Below, piece by piece: positions 6,351 to 9,368 of a DNA stretch of 64,000 nucleotides; the stretch's first letter is position 1; each line of letters opens with the position of its first letter. This stretch comes from Halobellus litoreus (lineage in GTDB: Archaea; Halobacteriota; Halobacteria; Halobacteriales; Haloferacaceae): NCBI RefSeq assembly GCF_024464595.1, contig NZ_JANHAW010000001.1:434001-498000 (forward strand), written 5' to 3'. The notes beneath the pieces are model-generated. The model was not told the origin of the DNA and ran no database searches. It was given only the letters and a program-made list of their open reading frames with translations. The position numbers and the translations under genes are program-made.

Positions 6351-6680
6351 ATGCAATTTTGCGACGACTGCGGGTCGATGATGGTCTCCCGCGACGGAAC
6401 GATGGTCTGCACGAACGACGACTGCGGCGCGCGGGCCGAACAGGACGCGGACCTGGCGGCGCAGTTCGTCTCCACCGAGGAACAGACCGACGACGACGTG
6501 ATCGAGACGACCGAGGACGCCAACTTCGAGGGCAAGCCGACGGCGACCGACGTCGTCTGCGACGAGTGCGGGAATCGAGAGGCCTGGTACACCATCAAGC
6601 AGACGGGGTCAGCCGACGAACCGCCGACGCGCTTCTTCAAGTGCACCGAGTGCGGGCACCGGTGGCGAGGGTATAATTAA
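6351..6680 (+). CDS. tfs: Transcription factor S (TFIIS/RPA12-like cleavage factor)
   Basis: 109 residues, the normal size. The N-terminal zinc ribbon uses C4, C7, C20 and C25; the C-terminal TFIIS-type ribbon uses C70, C73, C98 and C101 and ends FFKCTECGHRWRGYN. The Asp-Glu pair at 89-90 (GSADEPP) sits on the hairpin that enters the RNA polymerase secondary channel and stimulates cleavage of backtracked RNA. It lies 33 bp downstream of the Cys4 protein gene and is followed by a strong hairpin. Confidence 0.95.
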   Translation: MQFCDDCGSMMVSRDGTMVCTNDDCGARAEQDADLAAQFVSTEEQTDDDVIETTEDANFEGKPTATDVVCDECGNREAWYTIKQTGSADEPPTRFFKCTECGHRWRGYN

Positions 6681-6696
6681 GCATCCACCGTTTTAT

Positions 6697-6736
6697 TCGG
6701 GGGTCCTCGGCGGCTTCGCCGCCTTGAACCCCCCGA
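6697..6736 (+). terminator. Hairpin downstream of tfs
   Basis: Long imperfect stem: TCGGGGGT (6697-6704) pairs with ACCCCCCGA (6728-6736, one bulged C), enclosing GGCGGC-TTC-GCCGCC (6709-6723). It begins 16 bp after the tfs stop and is preceded by a T-rich run. It may end transcription, or be part of the structured element that follows. Confidence 0.5.
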
Positions 6737-6760
6737 CAAAAACCTGGTGGAAAAAACTTC

Positions 6761-6839
6761 CCGCGAGGCTCGCATTCGCCGCCGGCGCTACGCGCCGGCT
6801 TCCAGCGGAACCTTCGGTTCCGCCCGGTTCGCCTCGCGG
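6761..6839. other. Intergenic element able to form a three-way junction
   Basis: Outer stem CCGCGAGGC (6761-6769) with GCCTCGCGG (6831-6839), perfect over 9 bp. It encloses two perfect stem-loops: GCCGGCGC-TAC-GCGCCGGC (6781-6799) and CGGAACC-TTC-GGTTCCG (6806-6822). The region is open in frame on both strands but neither translation resembles a known domain. It could be a small RNA, a transcript end structure or a copy of a dispersed haloarchaeal repeat. Confidence 0.55.
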
Positions 6840-6950
6840 TTCGATTCCTGGAGCACCACCTCCGCTCCGCACCGAACGCCTGGACGATTTGGACCTTGAC
6901 GTCAAACAGCTACTCGGCAGCATCGCCCCTCGCGTCGCGGTGTCCTGTTC

Positions 6951-8888
6951 TCACCGGTACGACCGCAACGACGGATCGGCAGACGAGCGGGTACGACGAG
7001 CGGGTTCAATCCGGGTGAGTGCGTGCTGGAAATCGCTGCGCGTTATCGTCGGTGTCTCGTCCGTCCGTGCCTCGGTGTCTGCAGGTTGGTTCTCGGTCCC
7101 ACGGCCCTCCCCGATGGCGGCTCTGAGTGCAGTCATCGCAGCTTCGTCGCACACCGCAGCGATATCCGCACCGGAGTAGCGGTCGTCAGTTACGCGTGCC
7201 AACCACTCAGGGGCCACGTCGTCGGCCAACCGTCGATCTTGGAGGTGGGTTTGAAAAATCTCTCTCCGGGCCTGTTTGTCGGGCGTTGAAACCTCGATTT
7301 CGATGCTAAATCGGCCGGGGCGCCGCACGGCTGGATCGAGCATATCGACCCGGTTCGTCGCCGCGATGACGATGACGTCCCCGAGCGGTTCCATTCCGTC
7401 GAGTTCCGCCAGCAGTTGATTGACGATGCTGTCTGTGATGTCGCTCCCGGCACTGTACCCACCCCGTTTCGCAGCGATACTATCGAACTCGTCGAAGAAG
7501 ATCAGCGCGGGGGCGACCGCTCGGGCATTTACGAAGAGGTCGCGCACCGATCGTTCGGATTCACCGAAGTGCTTGTCGAATATTTCCGGGCCTTTGACCG
7601 ACAGGAAGCTGTGGTCGCTCTCGTTCGCCACTGCCTTGGCGAGCATCGTTTTCCCGGTGCCTGGCGGTCCGTGGAGGAGCACTCCCGTAGGCGGGTCGAT
7701 GTCGAGGGCCTCGAATTGGGTTGGGTATTTTTTCGGCCAGACGACAGCCTCCCGCAGGCGGCGTTTTGCCGTATCGAGCCCTCCGACGTCGTCGTACGAG
7801 ACCTCAGGAACCGAGGGAGTTCCCACGAGATGCGGGATGTGTCCTTCGATGTCGGTGGATTCTGTGTCCGTGGCCTTCTGCGCGTCCATTGGGTCCTCGT
7901 TTTGGCCACTCGAACGGGCGGCACCCGGTGACACCTCGGGATCGTCTCCATGAGTGTCGCTGTCGGTCAGTGATGTCAACGAGTCGCTATCCTCGCCCCC
8001 TGTCGAGGTCCCTCTCACGCTACTCTCACGACGACCTTTGCGCTCCCCGATCTCCTCGAATGCCGTCCGGAGTGCAGTCTGGTCGATCCTGGCTCGGTCC
8101 GATTGCGCGTCAGCGATCGAGATTTGGACAGCGCGTTCCACCGCAGCGACGATCTCGGCGGTCACAAACCCACTCGTGAGATCGACACAGCGCTCGTAAT
8201 CGACATCGGGCGCGACAGCGTCGAGTACGTCGAGGTGGTCTGTGACCGAGTGAATCTCCTCAGTGAGGAGTTGCCGGCGACGCGTCTCGTCCGGGCTGTC
8301 TAACCCCATCACGATGTCAATCCGCCCTGACCGACGGACAGTACGTTCGACGTCACTCAAGTGCGTCGCCGTTGCCACAACGAGAGCGTTCTCTTCGGCG
8401 GCATCGATTGCGTCCAGCGTCGATTTGAGAGCCGCCCCGACCTGGCTTGGGCGTCCGTACTCGTCTTCGTTATCAGTCGGTGCGATTGCATCGAACTCGT
8501 CGAGAAACAGGACGCAGGGTGCAGAAGATCGAACGAATTGTACCAGATCAGCGAGGATCTGTGCCGTTTCGTCGGGCGATTCGAGCGGCAAATCCGTCGG
8601 CGTAACCTGAATCTGATCGAAGTCCAGTTCACCGATGAGTGCCCGGGCGAGATGCGTCTTGCCGACGCCGGACGGCCCGTGTATCAGGACGCCGCTGGCA
8701 CCGACCGTTTCGTGACGGTCGGTGACCGCCGGATCGATCACGGACTCTCGAAGCCGACGTTTTCGCTCTTCCAACCCTGCGACGTCGCTGAATCGGATCT
8801 CGAACGGTGGTTCGACCCCGACAAGTCCTTGGAGGTCAACGTCGGTCCCATCTTGCTTCGCCGGTGGCTTCTTGTCGCCCTCAGTCAC
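6951..8888 (-). CDS. CDC48-like AAA ATPase with two AAA domains and no CDC48 N-domain
   Basis: 645 residues from the GTG at 8888, chosen because GGAGGT lies 7 nt upstream and an ATTTTATTA box about 30 nt upstream on the coding strand; the frame stays open to 9197 but that part looks non-coding. AAA domain 1: Walker A GPSGVGKT (71-78), Walker B VLFLDEFD (126-133). A Ser/Asp-rich linker spans about 281-360. Domain 2 is closer to canonical: GPPGTGKT (407-414), LIFFDEFD (462-469), with arginine finger region RRPGR (522-526). It lacks the N-terminal substrate domain of CDC48, so its client selection differs. No neighbour suggests a partner. Base composition is less GC-rich than neighbouring genes. 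Confidence 0.88.
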   Translation of the reverse strand: MTEGDKKPPAKQDGTDVDLQGLVGVEPPFEIRFSDVAGLEERKRRLRESVIDPAVTDRHETVGASGVLIHGPSGVGKTHLARALIGELDFDQIQVTPTDLPLESPDETAQILADLVQFVRSSAPCVLFLDEFDAIAPTDNEDEYGRPSQVGAALKSTLDAIDAAEENALVVATATHLSDVERTVRRSGRIDIVMGLDSPDETRRRQLLTEEIHSVTDHLDVLDAVAPDVDYERCVDLTSGFVTAEIVAAVERAVQISIADAQSDRARIDQTALRTAFEEIGERKGRRESSVRGTSTGGEDSDSLTSLTDSDTHGDDPEVSPGAARSSGQNEDPMDAQKATDTESTDIEGHIPHLVGTPSVPEVSYDDVGGLDTAKRRLREAVVWPKKYPTQFEALDIDPPTGVLLHGPPGTGKTMLAKAVANESDHSFLSVKGPEIFDKHFGESERSVRDLFVNARAVAPALIFFDEFDSIAAKRGGYSAGSDITDSIVNQLLAELDGMEPLGDVIVIAATNRVDMLDPAVRRPGRFSIEIEVSTPDKQARREIFQTHLQDRRLADDVAPEWLARVTDDRYSGADIAAVCDEAAMTALRAAIGEGRGTENQPADTEARTDETPTITRSDFQHALTRIEPARRTRSSADPSLRSYR

Positions 8889-9368
8889 AGTGATGACCTC
8901 CTTTTTGTTCAATAGTAATAAAATTAGGAACACCCACCACCGGGCACCGTGCACTCGGATTCCAGAGTTTCTCGACCTTTCACGCGGAATCGCCGACGAG
9001 AGCGCCGACCGCTGGATCGTCCCGGTGGACGTCCCTCTCTGGCGAGCCGCATAGATGCCCCGAATCGCAAAGTGGATCCAAGAGTCTCGAGTCCCGACCC
9101 GTGAGTAGCGAAATACCGAGACCGACGCGACTGCAGTCCGTGATCGAGGACCTGTCTCGTGTCTTGCCATAGCGACCGTCTGACGGATAATTAACATCAG
9201 TGTCTGCCCACTCTGACGACCTCGATGCAGCGGAGTTGACCAAATTCTGGGTTAGATATTTACAAAGCTCTCAAAGAATGCAATTTCCCACCACGACGGT
9301 GCTGATCTCCCGAGTGAAAGTCGCCTCGGCACCGGACATTCTTGTACGCGTCCGGCGAACCACAGAGT
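8889..9368. other. 480-bp intergenic stretch, AT-richer, no convincing gene
   Basis: This is upstream of the AAA gene. It holds its likely TATA-like box (plus-strand TAATAAAA near 8917-8924) and the SD-like GGAGGT (complement of 8896-8901). Short open frames on both strands show no haloarchaeal codon pattern or domain. Several AT-rich patches (for example 9249-9300) stand out from the rest of the window. Confidence 0.5.

Follow-up and report, generated by a model that had tools for sequence, protein, structure and literature searches.

A 49-bp, probably mobile double hairpin nested in a terminator-like hairpin element at haloarchaeal gene ends

The three-way junction at positions 6761–6839 of the window (the whole 64,000-nt stretch of Halobellus litoreus DNA that was analysed) belongs to a larger dispersed element, of which it is the 3′ half, and consists of two nested things, the outer hairpin of that element and an inner 49-bp unit. 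The reading that we favour, with a probability of about 0.68, is that of a nested pair, in which a terminator-like dispersed hairpin element has received a non-autonomous mobile 49-bp double hairpin, perhaps moved as single-stranded DNA.

Locus and Fold of the Junction

The junction is located between the stop codon (6678–6680) of tfs (transcription factor S/TFIIS-like zinc ribbon, 6351–6680, plus strand; PF01096, E 3.2e-18) and a convergent gene for an AAA ATPase with two AAA stretches (6951–9197, minus strand; PF00004, E 9.1e-66), which a caller trained on the codon usage of the window did not pick up, suggesting atypical codon usage. As an earlier note on this DNA had described, these 79 bp fold into an outer stem of 9 bp (6761–6769/6831–6839) and two inner hairpins with 3-nt loops, with a minimum free energy of −51.6 kcal/mol and a z of −4.72, and none of 200 dinucleotide shuffles folded equally well. 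The inner stems had been given as 8 and 7 bp; the first length was confirmed (6781–6788/6792–6799, loop TAC), whereas RNAfold gives 8 bp for the second (6805–6812/6816–6823, loop TTC). Inner hairpin 1 (6781–6799, plus strand), with the sequence GCCGGCGC-TAC-GCGCCGGC, is backed by the fold and by covariation, and inner hairpin 2 (6805–6823, plus strand), GCGGAACC-TTC-GGTTCCGC, carries a compensated G-C to A-U change with respect to the consensus GGGACC/GGTCCC. Immediately 5′ of the junction there is another hairpin, overlooked in the earlier note (6685–6750, plus strand), whose outer arms are CCACCGTTTT and AAAAACCTGGTGG. No Rfam family reached its gathering score across the whole window.

A Dispersed Two-Hairpin Element at Gene Ends

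Both hairpins belong to a two-hairpin element that is dispersed in Halobellus and some related Haloferacaceae, just 3′ of stop codons and tRNA ends. The stretch 6681–6920 gave five matches in its own genome, itself included, and was matched in 12 of the 17 genomes of the genus. The 60 distinct copies of the element share the plan CCACCTTTTT, hairpin I, AAAAACCTGGWGGGAAAAA, hairpin II, that is, a CCACC-T5 border, a first hairpin, the AAAAACCTGGWGGGAAAAA spacer and a second hairpin. Border and spacer are nearly invariant, and the stems are of several sequence types, variously combined. A search with the exact pattern of the element found it in 26 of 148 family genomes (5 of 28 genera), and the reversed control gave no matches. 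In the window, all on the plus strand, the left border CCACCGTTTT (6685–6694) is a degenerate form of the family's CCACC-T5, which in many copies is a T5C-type terminator; the conserved spacer AAAAACCTGGTGGAAAAAAC (6738–6757), found by the pattern search with no control matches, reads on the minus strand as a T tract followed by C; and hairpin II (6761–6839) is opened into the three-way junction. At the 3′ end of tfs, the element was found in five of the 17 genus genomes (G000, G003, G004, G005, and G012) and is suggested on a broken contig of a sixth (G008), and no element directly follows the tfs stop in the remaining 11.

According to a home-made gene caller, whose counts are rough, given its failure to call the window's AAA gene, a same-strand stop lies at most 15 nt upstream (mostly 2–5 nt) in 44 of 70 copies of the element, versus 155 of 20,600 random positions (0.75%), and convergent neighbours show no significant enrichment (24:17 vs. 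69:85, p 0.16). Some copies follow tRNA-Gly genes (L064, L079). Of the 60 copies, 55 have a T5 on the plus side and 57 have GAAAAA, a T5C on the minus strand, with both in 52. The form CACC-T5-C occurs in 33 of the 60, so that the feature of a T stretch followed by C is found at the level of the family, and the plus-strand T tract of the window itself, GTTTTA, is degenerate and lacks it.

As far as PMC7237163 describes it, T5C gives 95% termination in vivo at an intergenic terminator of Haloferax volcanii. In the composite element, T5 tracts likewise follow the stop and occur on the other strand. In that terminator the T stretch is itself the signal, whereas hairpins of the plan seen here do not appear around T5C in the relevant passages of the same paper (PMC7237163). 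Given that both its T5 just past the stop and its opposite-strand T5C correspond to a terminator proven in Haloferax, the dispersed element would, by analogy, be a transcription-end element. Two observations weigh against this role, namely the degenerate plus-strand tract in the window and the lack of significant enrichment of convergent neighbours.

Some copies hold further stretches. In five of them (L125, at the tfs 3′ end of G005, L017, L018, L094, and L121), a second, unrelated two-hairpin stretch, formed by CTTGCT..AGCAAG and TGAGACGC..GCGTCTCA, lies inside the spacer after CCTG, where the other copies have none. In L080, a hairpin pair (GGGAGAAC..GTTCTCCC and following) is found in the loop of hairpin I; thus, the loops of both hairpins I and II seem to accept such stretches.

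A Separate 49-bp Unit

The two inner hairpins form a separate 49-bp unit: of sites that otherwise match, some have it and others do not. Hairpin II is simple in most copies of the element, and in the window, as in some others, the unit (two hairpins with a short linker; 6779–6827, plus strand, 76.1 bits with its covariance model) sits in its loop. At the 3′ end of tfs the unit is present in G000 only, and the matching hairpin of G003 is of the same kind without it. A second pair with matching flanks consists of L002, with the unit, and L079, without it, the net difference being 50 instead of 49. The "perfect junction element" of the earlier note therefore holds as a fold, but not as a single element, since the outer hairpin and the inner double hairpin are separate units, each of them also found alone.

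Copies of the unit were also detected elsewhere. In L013 it occupies another hairpin (type-c) of this type of element, and in L021, L095, L097, and L101 it lies in hairpins 3′ of tRNA genes. L116 is a site in Haloarchaeobius iranensis, and in L122, from Halolamina pelagica, the unit lies within an ORF, namely a DUF7558 gene. Its hosts thus include the loops of hairpin II, of the type-c hairpin and of the tRNA-tail hairpins, all of them palindromes of other repeats. In genus g13, many of the copies lie in one larger repeat and therefore do not count as separate insertion events. Two units were found head to tail with zero gap at positions 506–603 of L209, and the unit model matches one genome (G035) at least 40 times, in part within hairpin arrays. 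In addition, 3′ of tRNA genes in L021, L095, L096, and L097, stretches similar to tRNA 3′ ends (e.g., GACTCCCGGTCGGCGCA) flank the unit-bearing hairpin, which recalls small tRNA-targeting elements.

Covariance-model scans, whose E-values are rough and whose weak matches may be due to chance, gave matches to the unit in 73 of 148 genomes of the family (17 of 28 genera) and in 125 of 292 genomes of the class (40 of 77 genera), with strong matches (E below 1e-9) in families f1, f2, f3, f4, f7, and f9. The first 23 copies align without gaps and showed weak covariation, with three double-change cells, a number reached by 7 of 500 shuffles. In a larger set of 52 distinct ungapped 49-mers, 97.2% of the cells were paired and 32 were double-change cells, compared with 4.1 on average and at most 10 in 1000 shuffles, and with 0–4 in slid controls, although relatedness among the copies inflates these counts; a set of copies fitted to the model agreed. 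The guess of the earlier note, a dispersed repeat with conserved structure, is borne out by these copies across genomes and by the compensatory changes in both inner stems. The unit appears to be a genuine mobile DNA of very small size, of a kind that occurs in many places in haloarchaeal genomes.

The fold score, the covarying stems and the position of the element directly after a stop codon would equally suit a functional RNA, either a small RNA or a 3′ UTR structure, with the three-way junction selected as such. We consider this improbable, as hairpin II is simple in most copies and the outer stem is imperfect in some of those that bear the unit (L018), and the presence of the inner unit in unrelated surroundings, even within an ORF, makes a small RNA less likely.

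It is still less probable that hairpin II and the unit together are an ordinary bidirectional terminator, in which the inner part was gained and lost by slippage between short repeats such as TCGCC. T tracts do exist on both strands, and TCGCC starts the unit while CTCGCC follows it in hairpin II; however, where the unit lies in the ORF or by tRNA genes, its two sides do not carry the same bases after TCGC or CTC, so that slippage would not yield an exact empty site there. Moreover, the same 49 bp are found across families, and a precise empty site exists outside hairpins in the DUF7558 genes.

Target Site and Ends

The unit is found at the target CG^CTC(G/A)C, often in the loop of a hairpin. 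In 24 chosen sites, five of which are one DUF7558 ORF site in five genomes, G is present at −1 in 21, and C, T, and C at +1 to +3 in 21, 21, and 22, respectively. No target duplication was observed at the unit sites examined, namely these 24 and the DUF7558 genes (gap 0 or 49). The unit extends 2 and about 5 bp past its hairpins, to ends that read TCGCCGG and GCCCGG and form no prominent inverted repeat; terminal inverted repeats are absent, and the unit is too short for a transposase. Read on the minus strand, an NGAG is followed by the unit, with hairpins near both ends. A target of the NGAG type plus near-terminal hairpins is the layout of a single-strand element of the IS200/IS605 type reduced to its ends, and the unit may be said to resemble such an element in layout, which is a resemblance and not membership.

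We recognised no transposase gene with unit-like ends: the 42 matches to the GAG-side end corresponded to complete or variant units, three of them (L269, L273, and L274) being inspected further, with ORFs listed for L273. In four Y1_Tnp loci, similarity to the unit ends gave chance-level scores. In bacterial REP/REPIN elements, a Y1-type enzyme acts in trans. As a mobiliser in trans of the unit, Y1_Tnp (PF01797) was rejected, as genomes with the enzyme and genomes with the unit do not coincide: it was detected in 103 of 148 family genomes, but it is absent in several unit holders (G004, G007, G028, and G102) and common in some genomes that have no units (G013, G015, and G016).

Recurrence in DUF7558 Genes

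Among 56 DUF7558 rows scored, seven bear the unit, with a gap of 49 in six of them and of 51 in the other, where a small frameshift lies ahead of an exact 49-nt unit. The rows without the unit show a gap of 0 in 48 of 49 cases and of −4 in the remaining one. On a tree of 55 rows, six changes of state are needed, all six forced by supported branches, each of which may be a gain, an exact loss or a short-tract recombination, these being indistinguishable on the tree. Four further genomes, from families f2, f4, and f7, have the unit at that same site. The units thus recur at one nucleotide of these genes, and they differ from one another in stem and loop.

The same pattern could be explained if copies of the unit passed between alleles by short-tract homologous recombination, the 49 bp having no mobility of their own, and exact excision is also a possible source. 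DUF7558 genes are present in several copies per genome and mixed among genera, and sequence conservation is high in the flanks close to the site, both of which speak for such exchange. However, beyond a few bases the surroundings of the unit are dissimilar among hairpin II, the type-c hairpin, the tRNA tails, the DUF7558 ORF, and the Haloarchaeobius site, and the mutual differences among units within the ORF also speak against it. Altogether, we regard recombination as an unlikely origin of the pattern.

Stops or frameshifts were found in the flanks of three of the seven unit-bearing rows versus 2 of the 49 others (Fisher p 0.011). As the unit-bearing rows are more often decayed, insertion of the unit probably inactivates the gene. 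Tolerance of the unit through removal or skipping at the RNA level, as a mini-intron or by ribosome bypass, would be consistent with the open reading frames on both sides in L122, L165, and L199 and with hairpin stems that still pair. Nevertheless, the units of L199 and L200 contain TTCTAG, an in-frame stop on read-through, and because of the three decayed rows we keep bypass or splicing only as a weak rival, with very little chance of being correct.

A Probable Mobile Unit in a Gene-End Hairpin

From its presence and absence at matching sites, the lack of target duplication, the target preference and the recurrence at one nucleotide of DUF7558, we infer that the 49-bp unit is a non-autonomous mobile DNA element. 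In the nested pair that we favour, the outer hairpin would work as a transcription-end element after stops and tRNA ends, and the unit would insert, often into the loop of a hairpin, at CG^CTC(G/A)C without duplicating the target. By analogy with IS200/IS605, it would most likely move as single-stranded DNA; the minus-strand NGAG would be its 5′ target, and its two hairpins would be what is recognised at the ends. For such an element, the loop of a hairpin, where one strand lies exposed, would offer a natural place to land.

Comparison with Known Elements

No description of a haloarchaeal double-hairpin element was found in the portions of the open PMC literature consulted, which included passages of PMC3119063, PMC7237163, PMC5910586, and PMC10544981. 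The nearest archaeal kinds are the palindrome-associated transposable elements (PATEs) and the SMR-A small mobile repeats of Haloquadratum, and the unit matches neither definition in full. As far as PMC3119063 describes them, PATEs are similar in being haloarchaeal, without transposase or terminal inverted repeats, with palindromes near their ends and no target duplication, one form of them, with termini only, being 52 bp long; however, their termini reach 20–50 bp past the palindromes, whereas those of the unit extend only 2 and about 5 bp beyond its hairpins. Furthermore, the unit consists of two unlike hairpins back to back, and for it a relation to IS605 ends did not show up in the four Y1_Tnp loci compared. 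Set against the features of PATEs and IS200/IS605 elements, the unit has near-terminal palindromes, no terminal inverted repeats, no room for a transposase, no duplication, and a fixed, short, one-sided target, but a Y1 transposase in the host is not a constant companion, as several unit-bearing genomes lack PF01797. SMR-A elements, in the account given of them in PMC3119063, also insert into palindromes of other repeats without target duplication, and their mobiliser is unknown; in contrast to the unit, which has 49 bp, no prominent terminal inverted repeats, and an ORF also among its targets, they are about 110 bp long with prominent terminal inverted repeats.

Nearest in form are the double-hairpin elements of fungal mitochondria, pairs of short hairpins for which mobility has been suggested (Paquin, Laforest and Lang 2000, as cited in PMC5910586), a likeness in kind only, the mobility of the unit being itself deduced. 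They belong to eukaryote organelle DNA and are likened to the unit by form, not by sequence. Finally, the REP/REPIN elements with RAYT transposases are, according to the part of PMC3116915 that treats them, short palindromes that are dispersed and considered to be miniature mobile DNA. These are bacterial, whereas the haloarchaeal unit has no Y1 partner that tracks with it.

Implications

A more specific proposal, which we hold as tentative, is that of a site-specific mobile unit spread class-wide in haloarchaea and moved by a non-Y1 enzyme that would recognise hairpin loops and CTCGC..CG^CTC(G/A)C, with several independent insertions at the same nucleotide of one gene family. If true, the unit would rank with the smallest mobile elements that prokaryotes have. 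The junction in itself leads to the question of what carries a gene-less 49-bp DNA to hairpin loops and, time and again, to a single nucleotide of one gene family throughout a class of archaea. The nested pair also shows the gene-end hairpins of haloarchaea to be rebuilt from interchangeable modules, which matters for terminator evolution and for annotating 3′ ends and small RNAs.
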